64,000 nucleotides of DNA, taken from NCBI RefSeq assembly GCF_014931215.1, contig NZ_CP063089.1, forward strand, positions 248,001 through 312,000. Reading direction: 5' to 3'. Under the pieces are notes generated by a model that was not told the origin of the DNA, made no database searches, and saw only the letters and a program-made list of their open reading frames with translations. Origin of the DNA: Campylobacter sp. 2014D-0216 (GTDB taxonomy: Bacteria > Campylobacterota > Campylobacteria > Campylobacterales > Campylobacteraceae). Of this stretch, positions 16,663 through 25,943 are shown one piece after another; position 1 is the stretch's first letter; each line of letters opens with the position of its first letter. Made by a program: the position numbers and the translations under genes.

Positions 16663-18060
16663 ATGTCGCAAAAAGCAGAGAAATTATGGGGTGGACGTTT
16701 TGATTTGCCTACAAATAAATTGGTTGAAGAGTACACCGCGTCATTGCCGGTTGAGCCAAGACTTGCTCCTTTTGATATACAAGGAAGCATAGTTCATTGC
16801 ACTATGCTTGCAAAACAAGGCATTATCAAAGAAGATGAAGCAAAGGCTATCATTAAGGGTTTAGAGCAAGTTAGAGAAGAAATTCAAAATGGTACTTTTG
16901 TGTTTGATATAGCTGATGAGGATATTCATATGGCTGTAGAAAAAAGAATGACACAAATTGTAGGTCCTGTGGGAGGAAAGCTTCATACAGCAAGAAGTAG
17001 AAACGATCAAACCACCCTTGATTCAAAAATGCATATGATGGCAGTTATTAAAGAGATCTTGAGTCAAATCACTACTTTACAAGAAGAGATTATTCATCAA
17101 GCTCAAAAAAATATTAAAGCTATTATGCCAGGTTATACTCATTTGCAAACAGGCCAGCCGATACTTTTTTCACATTGGATTATGGCGTATTTTTGGATGT
17201 TAAGCAGGGATTATTCTCGTTTTGAAGATTTATATAAAAGAATGCAAGAGTGTCCTTTAGGAGCAGCTGCTTTAGGGGGAACTACTTTTAATATTGATAG
17301 GCATTTTTGCGCAAAAGAATTAGGCTTTGCCAAGCCAACTGAAAATAGCATTGATAGTGTTAGCGATAGAGATCATATGGTGGAGTTTACTTCTATTGCA
17401 GCGATGTGTTTTATGCATCTTAGTCGTTTTTGTGAAGAAGTGATTATCTTTTCAAGTCAAGATTTTAAATTTATAGAATTAAGTGATGATTTTTGCACTG
17501 GTTCAAGCATAATGCCTCAAAAGAAAAATCCTGATGTAGCCGAAAAAATGCGTGGTAAAACAGGTAGAATGTATGGGAATGTTATGGCTATGTTGACCAT
17601 CATGAAAGGAATTCCACTTGCTTATAATACTGATATGAGTGAAGATAAGGCGCAAGTTTATGATTCTATGGATACTTTAATGGCAAGTTTGAAAATTTTA
17701 ACTCCTATGATAGAAAAAATGCAAGTAAATGCTGAAAATACAAGAAAAGCTGCAGCAAAAGGCTTTTCAAATGCAACTGATATGGCTGATTATTTAGTAA
17801 GAAAAAACATACCTTTTAGAGAGGCTCATAGCATTGTAGGTTCTGCGGTAAATTACTGTATAAAACATGGGAAAATGCTTGAAGAACTTAGTATGGAAGA
17901 ATTACATCAATTTAGCAAAAGTATTCAAAATGATATCTATGAAGCAATTGCTTTGGAAACTTGCGTAGATGCAAGAGTATCTTATGGTGGAACTGGTACT
18001 AAGGTTGTGTTAGAACAAATTGAACATGCTAAAGCGTTGTTGGTTCAAAACAAGGCATAG
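16663..18060 (+). CDS. argH: Argininosuccinate lyase
   Basis: Cleaves argininosuccinate to arginine and fumarate, the last step of arginine synthesis. 465 residues of the fumarase/aspartase superfamily. N-terminal LWGGRFDLPTNKLVEEYTAS, the active-site stretch HTARSRNDQTTLD, TGQPILFSHW, and the signature loop GSSIMPQKKNPD are visible. Inserted between the katA-ankyrin pair and the HeuR-like gene relative to remembered C. jejuni order, together with the Dcu carrier that starts 5 bases after its stop. Pairing a fumarate-producing enzyme with a C4-dicarboxylate carrier suggests coupling to fumarate handling. Confidence 0.93.
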   Translation: MSQKAEKLWGGRFDLPTNKLVEEYTASLPVEPRLAPFDIQGSIVHCTMLAKQGIIKEDEAKAIIKGLEQVREEIQNGTFVFDIADEDIHMAVEKRMTQIVGPVGGKLHTARSRNDQTTLDSKMHMMAVIKEILSQITTLQEEIIHQAQKNIKAIMPGYTHLQTGQPILFSHWIMAYFWMLSRDYSRFEDLYKRMQECPLGAAALGGTTFNIDRHFCAKELGFAKPTENSIDSVSDRDHMVEFTSIAAMCFMHLSRFCEEVIIFSSQDFKFIELSDDFCTGSSIMPQKKNPDVAEKMRGKTGRMYGNVMAMLTIMKGIPLAYNTDMSEDKAQVYDSMDTLMASLKILTPMIEKMQVNAENTRKAAAKGFSNATDMADYLVRKNIPFREAHSIVGSAVNYCIKHGKMLEELSMEELHQFSKSIQNDIYEAIALETCVDARVSYGGTGTKVVLEQIEHAKALLVQNKA

Positions 18061-18064
18061 TTGA

Positions 18065-19396
18065 ATGGATTTGATTTTTATATTAGAACTTTTTATCATC
18101 TTTTCTATGATAGCCATAGGTGGTAGATATGGTGGTATAGGACTTGGGGTTGCAGGTGGACTAGGCATGTGTATTTTGGTTTTGGTTTTTGGTATGCAAC
18201 CTGCTTCACTTCCTGTGAGTGTTGTGTTTATCATATTAGCTGTGATTACTTGTGTGAGTGTTTTACAGAGTGCAGGTGGACTTGATTTGCTAGTGAAAAT
18301 AGCAGAAAAAATTTTAAAGAAAAAACCTCAAGCTATTGTCTTTATGGGACCTTTGATCAGTTCTACTTTTACGATTTTTTGTGGTACTACTTATGTGGCG
18401 TTTTCTATTTATCCAGTGATTGCTGAAGTAGCTGCTCAGGCTAAAATTCGACCTGAAAGAGCGCTTTCGGTTTCAGTGATTGCAGCGGGTATTGGGGTGA
18501 TAGCTTCTCCTATGAGTGCAGCTACTGCTGCTATGGTAGCCATACTAGCTTTTAGTGGTACAACAATAGTGCAAATTCTAATGATAAGCTTACCCGCTTT
18601 TTTTATAGGTGTATTTTTTGCGTGTTTAAGTGTTTTTAAAAGAGGTAGAGAGCTTGAACAAGATGAGGAATTTTTAAGAAGAATAAAAGCTGGAGAGTAT
18701 CATTTTTTAAATGAAGACTTACAAAACAAAGATAGTGAGCACAATCCTATGGCAAAAAGATCTTTATATGTCTTTGCCTTAGGAATTTTAGCCATTATTT
18801 TTTTTGGTACTTTTACAAATTTGTTGCCTCATTATGAGCTTTCAAATGGCAATATTGAAAGACTCTCTACGCCAAATTTAATTCAAATGATCATGCTAGC
18901 AACAGCATGCTTAATCATGCTTTTTGCTAAAGTACCTGCTAATAAACTTGGTGAAGCTTCGGTGTTTAGATCGGGACTTATAGGGGTTATAGGGGTTTTT
19001 GGTATAGCATGGATGACAGGAACATTTTTTGAAGCCTATAAGCCATTATTTAGTGATTCTTTATCGCATGTTGTAGAGGATTATCCTTATTTGTTTGGGG
19101 TAGCTTTATTTGCTTTTTCTATGGTGATTTTTTCTCCTTCGGCTACTGTGGCTGCGTTAATGCCTTTGGGTGTAAGCTTAGGAATACCTCCTCATATTCT
19201 CATTGTGCTTTATCCTTGTGTATGTGGAGATTTCATAGTGCCAGGAGCTAATCAAATAGCTTGTGTTGCTTTTGATAGAACAGGCACAACAAGAATTGGC
19301 AAATTTGTGATTAATCATTCGTATTTAAGACCAGGGTTTGTTTTAGTTTTTAGTGCAACTATCGCAGGTTATTTTATCTCTAAGCTTGTATTTTAA
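18065..19396 (+). CDS. Anaerobic C4-dicarboxylate transporter, DcuA/DcuB family
   Basis: 443-residue inner-membrane carrier with roughly ten to twelve membrane helices. It shows the Dcu hallmarks GGRYGGIGLGVAGGLG, SAGGLDLLVKIAEKIL, RPERALSVSVIAAGIGVIAS and the C-terminal CVCGDFIVPGANQIAC. The family exchanges fumarate, aspartate and succinate under low oxygen. Downstream of argH with only 4 intervening bases and no clear ribosome site, so translation is probably coupled to argH. C. jejuni has dcuA and dcuB elsewhere; this may be an extra paralogue. Direction and substrate are not decidable from sequence. Confidence 0.85.
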   Translation: MDLIFILELFIIFSMIAIGGRYGGIGLGVAGGLGMCILVLVFGMQPASLPVSVVFIILAVITCVSVLQSAGGLDLLVKIAEKILKKKPQAIVFMGPLISSTFTIFCGTTYVAFSIYPVIAEVAAQAKIRPERALSVSVIAAGIGVIASPMSAATAAMVAILAFSGTTIVQILMISLPAFFIGVFFACLSVFKRGRELEQDEEFLRRIKAGEYHFLNEDLQNKDSEHNPMAKRSLYVFALGILAIIFFGTFTNLLPHYELSNGNIERLSTPNLIQMIMLATACLIMLFAKVPANKLGEASVFRSGLIGVIGVFGIAWMTGTFFEAYKPLFSDSLSHVVEDYPYLFGVALFAFSMVIFSPSATVAALMPLGVSLGIPPHILIVLYPCVCGDFIVPGANQIACVAFDRTGTTRIGKFVINHSYLRPGFVLVFSATIAGYFISKLVF

Positions 19397-19411
19397 GCTT
19401 AGAGATTATTT
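19376..19411. terminator. Terminator between the Dcu carrier and the HeuR-like regulator
   Basis: Perfect 12-base stem (arms 19376-19387 and 19395-19406, ATCTCTAAGCTT and its complement) with a 7-base loop and a following TATTTTT. It overlaps the dcu stop and ends the regulator transcript on the other strand. Confidence 0.8.
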
Positions 19412-20073
19412 TTAAGTTTTTGAAGATACCTATAAACGCTAGGTTCTGATATATTTAGTAGTTTGGCAACTATAGATATACTTCCTTTGATATTGAAAAT
19501 CCCTTTTGAGTGTAGTTTTTTGATGATTTCATCTTTTTGTTCAGTACTTAAGCTATAGCCTGAATTGAGATACTTTAAATCAATGTTTTCTGCTAAAATA
19601 TCTTCTATGGAATGACTAAGTGTTTCTATATTACTCATGTTGTGTAAATTGACATTATTTTGACTATGAATATCTAATAAATCACTAAAATCGTTAATCT
19701 TTTCAAGTTCTATGATTTTACTAATAGCACTTCTAAGTTCTGTTGTGTCGTGATTTATACATAAAATCCCTACGATTTTATTTTGATTTTTGATAAAAAA
19801 AGTTGATCCGGTAACAATTTTGGATTTTCCCACTCTTGCTTTATAATCACAAAGAAAATCTTTGTTTAAATACTCTTTTTCTTGGACTAGTTCGCTTGCA
19901 AAAGAAGTTAAAGGCGAGCTAGTCGTTCTTCCACTAATATGGTTATTTGCAATAGCTGCTATATAAGATCCCTCATCTGAAATCACATGAAAAACGATTT
20001 CATATTGTTTCCCAAGAACTTGCCCTAAAAACTGCGTAAGTTTAATAAATAATTCTTTTTGTTGTTCATCCAT
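19399..20073 (-). CDS. HeuR-like PAS and helix-turn-helix regulator, copy 2
   Basis: 224 residues: a YheO-like PAS domain (about 8-125; KQYEIVFHVISDEGSYIAAIANNH) and a C-terminal helix-turn-helix ending LNISEPSVYRYLQKLKNNL. Position matches C. jejuni Cj1387c (HeuR, heme uptake regulator): downstream of the katA-ankyrin pair and divergent from a RidA gene. Paralogue of the regulator at 13775-14413. It faces the five-gene RidA operon, whose promoter and an inverted repeat at 20142-20161 lie between them, so it may regulate that operon. The related DauR/YheO regulators in other bacteria respond to amino-acid-type ligands; the ligand here is unknown. Confidence 0.82.
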   Translation of the reverse strand: MDEQQKELFIKLTQFLGQVLGKQYEIVFHVISDEGSYIAAIANNHISGRTTSSPLTSFASELVQEKEYLNKDFLCDYKARVGKSKIVTGSTFFIKNQNKIVGILCINHDTTELRSAISKIIELEKINDFSDLLDIHSQNNVNLHNMSNIETLSHSIEDILAENIDLKYLNSGYSLSTEQKDEIIKKLHSKGIFNIKGSISIVAKLLNISEPSVYRYLQKLKNNL

Positions 20074-20176: not shown

Positions 20177-20205
20177 TTGACAATTTATTATTATGATGAT
20201 AATAT
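20177..20205 (+). promoter_or_regulatory. Sigma-70 promoter of the RidA operon
   Basis: TTGACA at 20177-20182 and TAATAT at 20200-20205 with a 17-base spacer: an unusually complete -35/-10 promoter for Campylobacter, which mostly lacks -35 boxes. It drives the RidA gene whose ATG is at 20241. Confidence 0.7.
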
Positions 20206-20240: not shown

Positions 20241-20603
20241 ATGGCAAATTATCCAAAAGCGATAGGACCATATTCAGCTTATAGAGAAGTTAATGGTTTA
20301 TTATTTATTTCAGGACAACTTCCTATTAACCCAGAAAGTGGAAATATAGAAAGTGAAGATGTAAAAGATCAAACAAGACAATCGTTGTTAAACATTAAGG
20401 CTATTTTAGAGGAAAATAATCTGTATTTTAATAATGTGGTAAAAACCACTTGCTTTTTAGCAAATATTGATGATTTTGTTGCTTTCAATGAAGTGTACTC
20501 TGAATTTTTCGCAGCTCCATATCCTGCAAGAAGTGCTTTTGCGGTAAAAGATCTTCCAAAAGGAGCAAAAGTGGAGATAGAGGTTATCGCTCATAAAGGA
20601 TAA
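20241..20603 (+). CDS. RidA family enamine/imine deaminase
   Basis: 120-residue Rid/YjgF protein. Members hydrolyse reactive 2-aminoacrylate and related enamines released by PLP enzymes. Family features seen: AIGPYSAYREVNGLLFISGQ at the N-terminus, the conserved arginine in YPARSAFAVKDLPKGAKVEIE, and the C-terminal glutamate strand. First gene of a tight operon with a carrier, a MetC-like C-S lyase (a possible source of aminoacrylate), a fumarase-type lyase and an MmgE/PrpD protein. Strong ribosome site AAGGAG. Corresponds in position to C. jejuni Cj1388. Confidence 0.88.
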   Translation: MANYPKAIGPYSAYREVNGLLFISGQLPINPESGNIESEDVKDQTRQSLLNIKAILEENNLYFNNVVKTTCFLANIDDFVAFNEVYSEFFAAPYPARSAFAVKDLPKGAKVEIEVIAHKG

Positions 20604-20606
20604 AGC

Positions 20607-22046
20607 ATGTTAGGTTTATGCTTCGCGTTATGCTCTATAATTTTACTTGTTTTTATGCTTTATAAAAAAGTCAACGCCCATATGGCGTTGCTTTTAAGTG
20701 GTTTATTATTGCTGTCTTTGGCGGGAATTTTTGGACTTTCTCCTATTATTGGTGAAAAACAATCGTTGCATTTAGGTTTTTTTGATATTTTCCAAGTAGT
20801 CAATACTAAAATGTCAAGCACCTTAGCAGGACTTGGACTTACTTTGATGTGTGTGGCAGGTTTTTCAGCTTATATGGATCATGTAGGTGCAAGTTATGCG
20901 TTGTTTAAGGTATTTGAAAAACCTCTCAAAGTAGTAAAATCCCCTTATATTTTACTCTTAGTTTCTTATTTTGTTGTTCAGTTTTTAGTGCTTTTTATAC
21001 CTTCACATGCAGGTTTAGCACTGTTGTTGATGGTCACAATGTATCCAATCTTAGTGCGTACTGGCGTGTCCAAGCTTTCAGCGCTTTCAATTATTGCTAT
21101 TTGTCAATACATCGATCATGGGCCAGGTAGCGGTAATGTGATTTTGGCTGCAAAAACAGCAGAGATTGATCCTGCGGTGTATTTTGTACATTATCAACTT
21201 CCTACAACTTGCCCTATTATTATAGCAGTAGGTATTGCGGTTTATTTTTGTTCAAAATACTTTGATAAAAAAGAAAATTTTGTATTTAATCGTGATGAGG
21301 TTGAAAGAGAATTAGCAGAGCATGATGGTAATAATGAAGAGTTGAAAAAACCACCTAGAATTTATGCAATTTTACCTATTTTACCTTTGGTGTTGATTTT
21401 AGGTTTTAGTAGTGTTGTAGATAGCATTATGATTTTAATGGGAATTACCACCATAGAAGAAGTGACAGCAGCTTCATCTACTGCTATTAAAATGAATGTA
21501 CCAGTTGCGATGATGATCTCAACTTTTATAGCAATTGCATTTGAAATTATTCGTTATAGAAGTTTGGTTGATACTTTAAATTCTATTATGGTATTTTTTA
21601 AAGGTATGGGGCATTTGTTTGTGATTACGGTGTCTTTGATTATATGTGGTCAAGTTTTTGCAAGTGGACTTTTATCGGTTGGTTTTGTAGATACCTTGAT
21701 AGATTTTGCAAAAAATGCAGGTTTTAGTGTGTTTGCTATTATTATAGCAGTATCTATTTTGCTTGCTGTGTGTGCATTTTTAATGGGATCTGGAAATGCA
21801 GCATTTTTTTCTTTTGCTCCACTCATTCCTAATATAGCAAAATCTTTTGGAGTAGATACTATATCCATGATCGCACCTATTCAAATCATGACAGGCTTTG
21901 GTAGATGTATTTCGCCGATTGCACCTGCTATATTAGCTATTTCAGCTATGGCAAAAGTAAATCCACTGCAAGTGGTAAAAAGAACACTTATCCCTATGCT
22001 AGTAGCTGCTATTGTGAATATGATCATGACTTATATTTATTTGTAA
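20607..22046 (+). CDS. DcuC-like C4-dicarboxylate carrier
   Basis: 479 residues, about twelve membrane helices, DcuC/YfcC-type anaerobic carrier rather than the DcuA/B type at 18065. Notable stretches: LLSGLLLLSLAGIFG, a conserved polar segment CQYIDHGPGSGNVILAAKTAEIDP near residue 170 (quoted in part: YIDHGPGSGN), and FMGSGNAAFFSFAPLIPN near the C-terminus. Three bases after RidA with AAGGAT before its ATG. In this operon it most likely imports the substrate or exports fumarate/succinate. In C. jejuni NCTC 11168 I recall the equivalent gene (Cj1389 area) as a pseudogene; here it is intact. Confidence 0.83.
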   Translation: MLGLCFALCSIILLVFMLYKKVNAHMALLLSGLLLLSLAGIFGLSPIIGEKQSLHLGFFDIFQVVNTKMSSTLAGLGLTLMCVAGFSAYMDHVGASYALFKVFEKPLKVVKSPYILLLVSYFVVQFLVLFIPSHAGLALLLMVTMYPILVRTGVSKLSALSIIAICQYIDHGPGSGNVILAAKTAEIDPAVYFVHYQLPTTCPIIIAVGIAVYFCSKYFDKKENFVFNRDEVERELAEHDGNNEELKKPPRIYAILPILPLVLILGFSSVVDSIMILMGITTIEEVTAASSTAIKMNVPVAMMISTFIAIAFEIIRYRSLVDTLNSIMVFFKGMGHLFVITVSLIICGQVFASGLLSVGFVDTLIDFAKNAGFSVFAIIIAVSILLAVCAFLMGSGNAAFFSFAPLIPNIAKSFGVDTISMIAPIQIMTGFGRCISPIAPAILAISAMAKVNPLQVVKRTLIPMLVAAIVNMIMTYIYL

Positions 22047-22059
22047 AAAGGAGTAAAAA

Positions 22060-23229
22060 GTGAACAATAAAACTAAACTTATTCATCTTGGAAGAGGTGA
22101 TCAAAATGTTGAAGCAAGATCGGTTAACCCTACCTTAATGCGTGCTTCTACTATACTTTTTAAAGATCATGCCACATGGCAAAAATACCGAGATTTAAGA
22201 AAAACAGATCGTGTTTTAACGTATGGAGCTAGAGGCACGGCAACGAATTTTGAATTAGAAAAACTAATTTGTGAGCTTGAAGGTGGATATAGAGCACAGC
22301 TTTTTCCAACGGGTCTTGCAGCTTTGGCTATGGTGCTTTTAAATTATGCGAGCAAGGATGCGCATATTTTAATCACTGATGCTATTTATGGCCCTGTTAG
22401 AACGATTTGTGATTTATTTTTGGCAAAAATGGGCGTAGAAATAGATTTTTTAAAAGCAGATGCAAGCGATGTGGTAGAAAAAATTAAGCCAAACACTAAG
22501 CTAATACTTTGCGAAAGTCCAGGTTCTATACTATATGAAATCATTGACTTACCAAAGCTTTGTGAAATCGCGCATAAGTATAACATACCAGTAGCGATTG
22601 ATAATACATATTCAAGTGGATATTTTTTCAATCCTTTAGAGTATGGAGCGGATATTTCAGTGATTGCTGCAACTAAGTATTTAAGTGGGCATTCAGATGT
22701 GACTATGGGTATAGTTATAACCAATGAAAAAGAGTGGCAAAATTTTGACAAATTACCAGAAGCTTTAGGTTTTACCACTAGTCCTGATGATTGTTATTTG
22801 GTGCTTCGTGGTATGAGAACTTTAGATGTTAGAATGAGAGCACATGAAAAAAGCGCAGATGAGGTGGTGGAGTTTTTGCAAAGTAGAAAAGAGGTTAAAA
22901 CGATTTTTTATCCAAAATTAAAAACTCATCCAAATCATGAAGTATTTATGCGCGATCATAAAGGTGCTAATGGTATGGTTACGATTGAATTTGCAGATGA
23001 TATTTCTAAAGAACAAGCTATTTTATTTGTTGATAGCTTAGAATACTTTTCAATTGGAGCAAGCTGGGGTGGATATGAGAGTTTGGCTACGGTTACAACC
23101 CCACCTAGAACTGCAACAGATTGGAGTAAAAGAGGGCCTTTTGTGAGATTTCATATAGGTCTTGAAGATAGCAAGGATTTGATTGCTGATTTAAAACAAG
23201 CATTTGAAAAAATCAATTTAAAAGGATAA
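22060..23229 (+). CDS. MetC-like PLP-dependent C-S lyase (cystathionine beta-lyase family), GTG start
   Basis: 389-residue Cys/Met-metabolism PLP enzyme. YGARGTATNFELEK, the GGYRAQLFPTGLAAL phosphate-binding stretch, the IDNTYSSG aspartate and the PLP lysine in AATKYLSGHSD are present. The C-terminus SWGGYESLATV and FHIGLEDSKDLIADL resemble proteobacterial MetC more than gamma-synthases. Such enzymes release a thiol plus 2-aminoacrylate, which would explain the RidA gene in the operon. GTG start at 22060 with AAGGAG upstream. The C. jejuni NCTC 11168 counterpart is remembered as a broken metC; this copy has no interruption. Confidence 0.85.
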   Translation: MNNKTKLIHLGRGDQNVEARSVNPTLMRASTILFKDHATWQKYRDLRKTDRVLTYGARGTATNFELEKLICELEGGYRAQLFPTGLAALAMVLLNYASKDAHILITDAIYGPVRTICDLFLAKMGVEIDFLKADASDVVEKIKPNTKLILCESPGSILYEIIDLPKLCEIAHKYNIPVAIDNTYSSGYFFNPLEYGADISVIAATKYLSGHSDVTMGIVITNEKEWQNFDKLPEALGFTTSPDDCYLVLRGMRTLDVRMRAHEKSADEVVEFLQSRKEVKTIFYPKLKTHPNHEVFMRDHKGANGMVTIEFADDISKEQAILFVDSLEYFSIGASWGGYESLATVTTPPRTATDWSKRGPFVRFHIGLEDSKDLIADLKQAFEKINLKG

Positions 23230-23232
23230 AAC

Positions 23233-24597
23233 ATGGGTGTAAGTGTATTTGATATGAGACTGCTTCAAGATTCTTGGAGCACTCCTGCAATGAGAGCTAT
23301 TTTCAGTGAAGAAAATAGAATTCAAAAATGGCTTGATGTAGAAGCTGCTTTGGCAAAAGCTCAAGCAAAACTCGGCATTATTCCTAATGAGGCGGCTGTG
23401 GAAATAGCTAAAAAGGCTCATTATCAATTTATGGATATGGATTATATTTTTGCTGAGTTTAAAAAGACCAAACACCCTTTAGTCCCTACTGTGCGTGGTT
23501 TAGAAAAAGCTTGCGAAAATGGTTTAGGTGAGTATGTACATTTTGGTGTAACTACTCAAGATATTATCGATACGGGATTGGTTTTGCAGTTTAAAGAAGC
23601 TATGGCTTTAATCAAACAGGATTTAAAAGAAATAGCAAAAAATTTAGCAAAAATCGCTAAAGAACATAAAAACACTGCAATGATGGGAAGAACTTTAGCT
23701 TTGCAAGCTTTACCTATAACCTTTGGACATAAAGTTGCAATTTGGCTTAGTGAGTTAAATCGCCACTATGAAAGAATTATCGAGCTTGAAAAAAGATTAT
23801 ATGTAGGATTAATCGTAGGTGCAGTAGGAACTAAAGCAAGTTTAAGTGAAAAGGCTAATGAGGTAGAAAAGCTTACTTTGGAGAGTTTAGGTTTAGAAGT
23901 GCCTGATATCTCATGGCAACCAGCAAGAGATCGTTTTGTGGAACTTGGTTATGTTTTAGGCAATATCAATGCAACTTTTAACAAAATCGCACATCAACTT
24001 TTAATCTTAACTCACAATGAAATAGACGAAATTGCTGAACCTTTTGGAAAAGGTCAGGTGGGAAGTTCTACTATGCCTCATAAGAGAAATCCTGCTGTAA
24101 GCGAAAATGCTGTAACAGTAAGTAATGCTTTAAGAGCAAATATTGCAATTATAGGCGATATAGAAAGACATGAGCATGAAAGAGATGGACAAGTTTGGAA
24201 AATGGAGTGGAAACTTTTACCAGAAGCTTTTTTAATGCTTTCTGTGATCTTGGCAAATATGAAATTTGTTTTCGAAGATTTAGAGGTTAAAAAAGACAAA
24301 ATGTTAAAAAATCTTAACACACTTGATGGTTTTGTATTAGCAGAGCGTGTAATGTTTGCTTTGAGTGATCATTATGGTAAGCAACATGCGCATGAAATTG
24401 TATATGAAAATGCCATGAGGGGGATAGAAAACCATAAAACATTCAAAGAAGTCTTGCTTGATGATGAGCGTGTGAGTAAGGTTTTAAGCGAAAAAGATAT
24501 TGATGCTTTGATGGATGCGACAACTTATGTGGGATATGCACCAAAGCTAGTTGATGAATTTTTAGAAAAAATCGCTAATGCTGAAATTTTAAAGTAG
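23233..24597 (+). CDS. Fumarase/aspartase-superfamily lyase, adenylosuccinate-lyase-like
   Basis: 454 residues. Conserved superfamily regions are GEYVHFGVTTQDIIDT (catalytic Thr/Asp region), MMGRTLALQALPITFGHK, and the mobile signature loop GSSTMPHKRNP with its catalytic serine. The fold cleaves N- or S-succinyl compounds to fumarate. Context does not suggest purine synthesis: neighbours are a RidA, a dicarboxylate carrier, a C-S lyase and an MmgE protein. C. jejuni has a separate purB plus a lyase at this position (Cj1394). I infer a non-purine fumarate-releasing lyase; adenylosuccinate lyase remains possible. Starts 3 bases after the preceding stop, with AAGGAT upstream. Confidence 0.8.
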   Translation: MGVSVFDMRLLQDSWSTPAMRAIFSEENRIQKWLDVEAALAKAQAKLGIIPNEAAVEIAKKAHYQFMDMDYIFAEFKKTKHPLVPTVRGLEKACENGLGEYVHFGVTTQDIIDTGLVLQFKEAMALIKQDLKEIAKNLAKIAKEHKNTAMMGRTLALQALPITFGHKVAIWLSELNRHYERIIELEKRLYVGLIVGAVGTKASLSEKANEVEKLTLESLGLEVPDISWQPARDRFVELGYVLGNINATFNKIAHQLLILTHNEIDEIAEPFGKGQVGSSTMPHKRNPAVSENAVTVSNALRANIAIIGDIERHEHERDGQVWKMEWKLLPEAFLMLSVILANMKFVFEDLEVKKDKMLKNLNTLDGFVLAERVMFALSDHYGKQHAHEIVYENAMRGIENHKTFKEVLLDDERVSKVLSEKDIDALMDATTYVGYAPKLVDEFLEKIANAEILK

Positions 24598-24602
24598 TAC
24601 CA

Positions 24603-25943
24603 ATGTATATAAGTGAAAAATTAGCTGATTTTATTGTCAAATTAGACTACGAGATGATCCCTCATGAAGTAAAACAAAGAGCAAAAGAGTTAATGTTAGA
24701 TGCTTTAGGAACGGCTTTAGCAGCTAAAAATGAATCTTGTGTGCTTAATGCAACTAAAGCTTTTGAAAGCTTAAGTTTAAATCCTAGTGAAAAAATTTGG
24801 TGTGAAGATAAAAAACTTGATGTAATCTATGCTGCGATGGTAAATGCTATCGCAGCACATGCTCTTGATTTTGATGATACTCATACTGAGGCTATCTTGC
24901 ATGCAAGTGCGATTTTAGCTCCGCTTTGTTTAACTTATGGATTTAGTGTAAGTAAAGATGGAAAAAAAGTTTTAAAAGCTTTTATTGCAGGCTGGGAGAT
25001 TGCTGCTAGAGTGGGTATAGCAAGCAAAGGAAGTTTTCACAAACGTGGCTTTCATACTACTGCTATAGCAGGAATTTTTGGTAGTGTGGCCGCAAGTTGT
25101 GTTTTGTTGGATTTAAATAAAGAGCAAATTATTAATGCATTAGGTTTAGCAGGAAGTTTTGCAAGTGGAGTGAATGAGTTTTTATCTAATGGTTCTAATT
25201 CTAAAGTATTGCATATTGCCAATGCTTTAAAAAATGGAATTTTGGTGGCAAATTTTGCAAAAGCTAATATGAGTGGTCCTTTGAGTATATTTGAAGGAAG
25301 GGATAATATCTTTAGAGCTTTTGGCTTAGAAGATGAATGCGATAAAAATGAACTTTACAAAGGCTTGAGTGAAATTTGGCAAGTAATGCAAGTTTCGTTA
25401 AAACCTTATCCAAGTTGTCATTTTGCACATGGGCTTATTGATTGTGCGGTGAGTTTAAGAAATGATGGTTTAAAAGCACAAGATATTGTAAGCATACGAT
25501 GTTTTGTAGATGAGGTGCCAATTGCGTTTATATGTGATCCAATCGAAGCAAAATACGCGCCAAAAAGTGCCTATGCAGCCAAATTTTCTATGCCTTTTTT
25601 AATGGCTTTAGCGTTTTTTGATGGTAAAATTACTCTAAAATCTTACGAGGATTTAAACCGAGCGGATTTGATAGAATTTGCTAAAAAAATTAGCTATGAG
25701 AAGAAAAAATCTAGCGGCTTTCCAAAGTATTTTCCAGGACACTTAGAGGCTATTTTAAGTGATGGTAAAATAATAAAAAAAGACATGCCGATTAATAAGG
25801 GTAATTTTGACAATCCTTTGAGTTTTGAAGAACTTAAAAGCAAATTTCTTTCTAATGCTACAGTAAGTCTTTCTTTAACAAAGGCTGAGGAATTAGTCGA
25901 AAAGGTGCAAAATCTAGAAAAACTAGGCGATTTTCATTTTTAG
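24603..25943 (+). CDS. MmgE/PrpD family protein
   Basis: 446 residues. The N-terminal helical domain has MLDALGTALAA and the family hallmark NAIAAHALDFDDTHTEA near residues 81-97; GFHTTAIAGIFGSVAAS and SFASGVNEFLSNGSNSK follow; KPYPSCHFAHGLIDCAVSL begins the second domain. Known members include 2-methylcitrate dehydratase, cis-aconitate decarboxylase and iminodisuccinate epimerase. The last is the interesting precedent, since it works with a fumarase-superfamily lyase on a succinyl-amino acid. Fifth gene of the RidA operon; weak ribosome site, probably coupled to the gene ahead. The C. jejuni NCTC 11168 copy is recalled as a pseudogene. Confidence 0.82.
   Translation: MYISEKLADFIVKLDYEMIPHEVKQRAKELMLDALGTALAAKNESCVLNATKAFESLSLNPSEKIWCEDKKLDVIYAAMVNAIAAHALDFDDTHTEAILHASAILAPLCLTYGFSVSKDGKKVLKAFIAGWEIAARVGIASKGSFHKRGFHTTAIAGIFGSVAASCVLLDLNKEQIINALGLAGSFASGVNEFLSNGSNSKVLHIANALKNGILVANFAKANMSGPLSIFEGRDNIFRAFGLEDECDKNELYKGLSEIWQVMQVSLKPYPSCHFAHGLIDCAVSLRNDGLKAQDIVSIRCFVDEVPIAFICDPIEAKYAPKSAYAAKFSMPFLMALAFFDGKITLKSYEDLNRADLIEFAKKISYEKKKSSGFPKYFPGHLEAILSDGKIIKKDMPINKGNFDNPLSFEELKSKFLSNATVSLSLTKAEELVEKVQNLEKLGDFHF

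Follow-up and report, generated by a model that had tools for sequence, protein, structure and literature searches.

A five-gene Campylobacter operon that may break down S-(2-succino)cysteine without acetylation

Described routes and the Campylobacter operon

S-(2-Succino)cysteine (2SC), in which cysteine and succinate are linked through sulfur, is the stable scar of fumarate reacting with thiols. Two bacterial routes for its breakdown have been described in the openly licensed literature, and both are based on acetylation. Here we analyze a five-gene operon at positions 20241 to 25943 of a 64,000-nucleotide stretch of the Campylobacter sp. 2014D-0216 genome (contig NZ_CP063089.1, positions 248,001 to 312,000; the window), which would add a third, probably an acetylation-free variant. 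On balance, we favor a reading in which these genes act as an inducible module for the catabolism of 2SC or a cysteine-succinyl thioether much like it. In the openly licensed literature, we found neither a functional assignment for the operon nor any link between it and 2SC, which is itself a biomarker of diabetes, obesity, and certain cancers (PMC9706529).

The S-(2-succino) lyase (2SL) variant of the scm/yxe pathway, found in Enterococcus italicus and Dickeya dadantii, has in common with the operon a fumarase-superfamily lyase proposed to free fumarate from an S-succino adduct and, in many loci, an MmgE/PrpD gene and a dedicated importer alongside; 2SL both makes and breaks S-succino bonds, and acetylation was suggested by the authors to limit the back reaction (PMC9706529). 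The operon differs in having no YxeL acetyltransferase, M20 deacetylase, or ABC importer, and in carrying a MetC-like pyridoxal phosphate (PLP) lyase, RidA, and DcuC; its lyase and MmgE/PrpD protein also fall in separate clades. The YxeK variant of Bacillus subtilis shares the proposed substrate, and its YxeQ belongs to the MmgE/PrpD family (PMC8752978), but cleavage there is oxygen dependent, through the YxeK monooxygenase, and the operon has no equivalents of yxeK, yxeL, or yxeP. In the coenzyme M (CoM) synthesis locus of Nocardioides JS614 (L083), XcbD is a related lyase whose name refers to the joining of cysteine with a fumarate-like acid and whose model name implies action on a cysteine thioether. 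A PLP-enzyme gene adjoins xcbD, but XcbD is biosynthetic and shares 38.5% identity with the operon lyase. The pairing of an iminodisuccinate lyase with an MmgE-type epimerase (2hp3) in Agrobacterium is an established concept; in the epimerase half, which we compared, His99 is common to both proteins, whereas Tyr145 becomes His in the operon protein. E. coli MetC (1cl1) matches the MetC-like enzyme in fold, PLP lysine, and core catalytic residues, but its Arg58, Asp116, Tyr238, and Tyr338 are replaced.

Operon layout and promoter

Five intact genes lie on the forward strand with gaps of 3, 13, 3, and 5 bases, so that this much of an earlier, sequence-only reading of the window is borne out by the open reading frame coordinates; the Pfam assignments are unambiguous. 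The features, including a divergent regulator that the earlier reading left out, are as follows.

20177..20205, forward strand: sigma70-type promoter TTGACA-17-TAATAT (sequence; TATTGAC invariant in 26 genomes)
20241..20603, forward strand: RidA (2-aminoacrylate/imine deaminase), Cj1388 type (TIGR00004 above cut-off; PF01042)
20607..22046, forward strand: DcuC-family carboxylate carrier, presumed importer (PF03606; NF037994 above cut-off)
22060..23229, forward strand: MetC-like fold-type-I PLP C-S lyase, GTG start (PF01053; TIGR01324 just over cut-off; residues; clade)
23233..24597, forward strand: aspartase/fumarase-superfamily lyase, proposed S-(2-succino)cysteine (or mercaptosuccinate) lyase (PF00206 and PF10397; trees; GSSTMPHKRNP signature)
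24603..25943, forward strand: MmgE/PrpD-family protein, proposed succinyl-stereocenter epimerase (PF03972 and PF19305; 2hp3 match; residues)
19399..20073, reverse strand: YheO-like PAS_6 plus HTH_22 transcriptional regulator, Cj1387c type (Pfam; conserved neighbor of the operon)

The complete promoter noted earlier is present, with TTGACA at 20177-20182, a 17-base spacer, and TAATAT at 20200-20205, and it is conserved across Campylobacter. The string TATTGAC is identical in all 26 of the intergenic regions compared, although the sequence upstream can barely be aligned, so the match is not due to chance. AT-rich dyads of the TTATTATnRTAATAA type lie just upstream of the promoter and between its hexamers, overlapping it; these are possible operators. 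All five genes are under purifying selection: in pairwise comparisons with the four closest species included, dN/dS was 0.02-0.10 throughout.

Recurrence of three enzymes in five lineages

That the MetC-like enzyme, the lyase, and the MmgE/PrpD protein recur independently as a trio is our strongest new evidence. Accompanied by a carboxylate importer, the trio occurs in Campylobacter, Pasteurellaceae, E. coli, Proteus mirabilis, and Roseovarius, in differing layouts. Genome G516 (2.6 Mb), which comes from the order of Pectobacterium and which we infer to belong to the Pasteurellaceae, encodes regulator-DcuC-MetC-lyase-MmgE at 49, 68, 77, 77, and 60% identity, respectively (L209). Among 5,426 complete E. 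coli genomes, 36 carry the module (counting matches that span 80% or more of the query), with DcuC-MetC divergent from lyase-MmgE, as in P. mirabilis (DcuC, 54%; MetC, 55%; lyase, 60%; MmgE, 41%). In E. coli strain EBJ003 (L175 8196-16843), it is flanked by a LysR regulator and a class II fumarase gene, fumC, which suggests fumarate as a product. Roseovarius sp. MMSF_3281 has a LysR regulator followed by a tripartite importer, TctC-TctB-TctA, in place of DcuC, and then MetC (44%), lyase (64%), and MmgE (47%). Transporters of the DcuC and TctC types point to a di- or tricarboxylate as the imported compound.

The module is rare: a lyase this close was found in 1 of 140 genomes of the G516 family and in 1 of 391 of the order of R. 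nubinhibens. The lyase relatives of about 52% identity in Burkholderiales (L228-L234, from the order of a Burkholderiaceae metagenome-assembled genome [MAG]) have no adjoining MetC or MmgE gene, making the trio a feature of the lyase clade of roughly at least 60% identity. Neither R. nubinhibens nor the Burkholderiaceae MAG (64%) yielded a MetC-class match at E <1e-40 across the genome sequence searched. Since the spread is patchy and the transporters and regulators vary while the three enzymes stay constant, the three probably act on one substrate, a carboxylate.

The EBJ003 module sits in a chromosomal region rich in insertion sequences near iutA. One plasmid copy of the E. coli module (CP069439) is split into fragments.

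The lyase as a relative of 2SL and XcbD

The lyase carries the class I fold (PF00206 and PF10397) with the signature GS[ST]TMPHKRNP. Its best solved-structure matches are 3c8t and then the trans-aconitate decarboxylase Tad1 (291 bits); among curated models, XcbD scores 465 bits, under its cut-off, and the PurB-type TIGR00928 scores 359.5 against a cut-off of 326.2, a pass that explains the "purB" labels in databases. The sequence-only reading had allowed that the genome might lack another purB; this is excluded by a separate, dedicated 442-amino-acid purB (G000:C1:49183-50466), which also rules out the operon lyase as the cell's only purB.

In a tree of 38 rows with PurB left out, the module lyases (100/100), the 2SLs of scm loci (100/100), and XcbD of the Nocardioides JS614 CoM locus group together at 95/89. 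When PurB and PDB references were added, PcaB, Tad1, and 3c8t fell outside module lyases, 2SL, and XcbD at 93/90. The scm 2SL clade (100/100) excludes the module lyases, and an exclusive clade of module lyases and 2SL was rejected by the approximately unbiased (AU) test (P = 0.006), as was a clade of module lyases with XcbD alone (P = 0.0074). By its placement in these trees, therefore, the lyase is a relative and not an ortholog of 2SL, and its nearest functionally understood relatives are the 2SL of scm/yxe loci and the cysteine-adding XcbD. The active site in the fumarase superfamily is built from three subunits. All module lyases have Leu155 where PurB and 2SL have His, and carry Lys201 and Lys327, which differ in 2SL.

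The MmgE/PrpD protein

Iminodisuccinate epimerase (2hp3) is the nearest solved structure to the MmgE protein (141 bits), with cis-aconitate decarboxylase (CAD) matching at 124 bits; PrpD family models score 26-38 bits, below their cut-offs of 458-950. All module MmgE proteins retain His99, the first catalytic base of iminodisuccinate epimerase, and have His in place of Tyr145, the second base, where the MmgE proteins of scm loci have Tyr. Their activity as epimerases is thus putative. The scm loci often have an MmgE/PrpD gene of their own near 2SL (L091, L211, L212, L213, and L215), and the module proteins group apart from these. Two lyase clades hence appear to be paired with two MmgE groups, as would fit a shared need for epimerization of the succinyl carbon.

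The MmgE protein of a Lysinibacillus scm locus scores 316 bits against 7bra ("B. subtilis IRG1," 445 residues), so 7bra is probably YxeQ of the B. subtilis 2SC operon. The active-site residues of 7bra have been reported as completely conserved with those of iminodisuccinate epimerase (PMC7347537). The naming of 7bra as a cis-aconitate decarboxylase may be wrong (compare L091 14284-15579).

The MetC-like enzyme and RidA

The MetC-like protein passes TIGR01324 narrowly (369.6 bits; cut-off, 365.9) and keeps Lys210, Asp185, Tyr111, Trp340, and Arg372 of E. coli cystathionine beta-lyase. Its pocket carries the changes R58A, D116T, Y238E, and Y338A; the same replacements occur in most module MetCs, except that position 116 is Thr, Ser, or Lys. 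Arg58 and Asp116 are presumably substrate-pocket residues of the E. coli enzyme, and we read the altered residues as a pocket that may be changed for the far end of the thioether. A clade supported at 99/96 joins the protein to the module MetCs of E. coli, Proteus, and Pasteurellaceae and sets it apart from canonical MetC; the copy from Roseovarius was unplaced. P. mirabilis has a canonical MetC-type gene in addition to its module copy.

This is the sole MetC-class PF01053 protein in the genome, remaining hits scoring 35 bits or less, and no cystathionine gamma-synthase was found among those PF01053 hits (MetA was not searched for). A role in methionine synthesis or transsulfuration is unlikely because no partner enzyme for cystathionine synthesis is present among the hits. 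RidA is a Rid family hydrolase by TIGR00004 (150.9 bits; cut-off, 106.25).

The operon across Campylobacter

The lyase was found in 36 of 49 species-level Campylobacter genomes. Among the 28 loci examined, the usual arrangement is RidA-DcuC-MetC-lyase-MmgE with the regulator divergent, and a few are eroded. In one genome (G308), DcuC, MetC, lyase, and MmgE are all broken. Two others (G218 and G227; L071 and L072) keep the regulator, RidA, MetC, and lyase and have lost DcuC and MmgE, with no MmgE found elsewhere in either genome; MetC and the lyase thus form the core of the module, and such reduced loci would fit use of 2SC formed internally. The earlier reading took the C. jejuni NCTC 11168 locus to contain several pseudogenes, for which we found support in the case of Cj1389/dcuC, and the present genome to be the working version; the operon is indeed intact here, but this does not set the genome apart, since most operon-bearing Campylobacter species keep it intact.

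A second RidA copy (65%) lies directly 3' of MmgE in two Campylobacter genomes (L054 11783-12139 and L055 11810-12166).

The divergent regulator

The PAS_6/HTH_22 gene at 19399-20073 adjoins the operon across Campylobacter and keeps its divergent orientation in the Pasteurellaceae copy (L209). It has the same architecture as C. jejuni Cj1387c, which represses cj1388 and whose loss raises Cj1388 (RidA) (PMC4519771). By analogy, the regulator is probably a repressor of the operon, and inducible, repressor-controlled expression would suit catabolism of an occasional substrate. In one locus (L067, G320), the regulator has moved to lie at the operon's 3' end, and RidA is just 62% identical.

Proposed pathway and alternatives

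In the pathway that we propose, DcuC would import the carboxylated substrate and the MmgE/PrpD protein would epimerize its succinyl carbon, a step needed because chemical succination yields both diastereomers. The lyase would then take off fumarate to leave the thiol, and the MetC-type PLP enzyme would carry out beta-elimination at the C-S bond of cysteine, giving sulfide and 2-aminoacrylate. The presence of RidA fits because the PLP enzyme would release 2-aminoacrylate, which RidA would hydrolyze to pyruvate and ammonia; the net reaction would convert 2SC to fumarate, pyruvate, NH3, and H2S. Being irreversible, the PLP step would draw forward the thermodynamically unfavorable lyase reaction, taking the role of N-acetylation and deacetylation in the scm/yxe pathways. 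2SC is the best reading of the substrate, as a simple compound whose two C-S bonds match the two enzymes. YxeL, YxeMNO, and YxeP are absent from the operon and from the surroundings of its sister copies (E. coli, Pasteurellaceae, and Roseovarius loci); given this lack of acetylation and deacetylation genes and the preference of 2SL for N-acetyl-2SC, the chemistry must differ from that of the known pathways.

Several observations weigh against this proposal. Characterized 2SL enzymes are poor on free 2SC (Km, ∼10 mM; kcat, ∼0.05 per s), compared with a Km of ∼1.2-1.4 mM for N-acetyl-2SC (PMC9706529). The operon lyase falls outside the 2SL clade and has Leu155 for the His of PurB and 2SL; with PurB in the tree, where it forms a long branch, a "C-S lyase" grouping is unsupported (34/7). 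The second base of the MmgE protein differs from that of iminodisuccinate epimerase. No RidA gene lies beside the Pasteurellaceae, Proteus, E. coli, or Roseovarius copies, and two Campylobacter species retain RidA-MetC-lyase without DcuC and MmgE. The putative uptake and cleavage of a 2SC-like adduct, as the sequence-only reading had it, gain support from the recurrence of the trio and from kinship with 2SL and XcbD. The order in that reading, lyase then PLP enzyme, is still the one we favor, although a MetC-type enzyme could cut the cysteine side first.

That reversed order is the alternative that survives best, although we think it unlikely. The MetC-type enzyme would act as a cysteine-S-conjugate beta-lyase on 2SC, releasing mercaptosuccinate and 2-aminoacrylate (cleared by RidA); MmgE would set the stereocenter of mercaptosuccinate, and the lyase would yield H2S and fumarate. 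Cystathionine beta-lyases cut cysteine thioethers, of which 2SC is one, and the pocket for the far end of cystathionine is altered here by the loss of Asp116, Tyr238, and Tyr338. 2SL strongly prefers an N-acetylated thiol over free cysteine and accepts 2-mercaptoethanol, CoM, and dithiothreitol (PMC9706529). Leu155 in place of His would fit a leaving group with no need of protonation. To our knowledge, however, no member of the superfamily has been reported to release sulfide from mercaptosuccinate, and both orders give the same products, so that genomics cannot separate them. A third acetylation-free, oxygen-independent 2SC pathway in enteric pathogens, built on a dedicated MetC-type 2SC beta-lyase and a mercaptosuccinate lyase, is a tentative suggestion.

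It is rather improbable that the lyase and MmgE serve catabolism of N-succinyl (aspartate-derived), iminodisuccinate-like compounds while MetC and RidA carry out a separate desulfhydration of cysteine or cystathionine. The closeness of MmgE to iminodisuccinate epimerase and the TIGR00928 score of the lyase would agree with this, but MetC accompanies the other two enzymes in all five lineages, the two reduced Campylobacter loci keep MetC and lyase though MmgE is lost, and the genome has its dedicated purB.

We consider a biosynthetic role still less probable, with the lyase joining cysteine to fumarate, as XcbD would, the PLP enzyme freeing a thiol such as mercaptosuccinate, and DcuC exporting it. 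The 2SL equilibrium lies strongly toward the adduct (PMC9706529), and the related XcbD has a PLP-enzyme gene following it in the CoM locus; that enzyme, however, is annotated merely as a "pyridoxal-phosphate dependent enzyme" and not as MetC type, the Roseovarius copy comes with a binding-protein importer of the TctC type, the E. coli module is paired with fumC, and there is no known product.

Tricarboxylate or propionate chemistry, with the lyase as a trans-aconitate decarboxylase or MmgE as a cis-aconitate decarboxylase or 2-methylcitrate dehydratase, has an in-silico precedent (propionate catabolism proposed for a C. jejuni MmgE protein; PMC8752978) and the structural matches to Tad1 and CAD, but is rejected as highly improbable on the PrpD family scores and on the position of Tad1 and PcaB in the lyase tree, and it leaves MetC and RidA unexplained.

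If 2SC breakdown is the function, succinated thiols would be nutrients valuable enough to gut bacteria (Campylobacter, Proteus, and some E. coli) to justify a mobile operon. C. jejuni does not use sulfate (PMC9855970), and the pathway would supply campylobacters of this kind with a source of reduced sulfur, together with fumarate and pyruvate. It would also give a metabolic rationale for the Cj1387c-Cj1388 (RidA) regulatory pair, hitherto studied for its flagellar and agglutination effects.

Neighboring genes and other loci

An argH gene and a DcuA/B-type carrier gene (window 16663-19396) lie immediately upstream of the regulator here and in the closest relatives; among the loci compared, the pair was not found at this place in other Campylobacter species. 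Two MAGs labeled Campylobacter (L096 and L100) encode a lyase relative of 41-42% identity followed by a DASS-type (Na_sulph_symp) transporter, a further transporter-linked lyase clade. In a close relative (G330), feoB is broken by many stops (L052 12024-14030).

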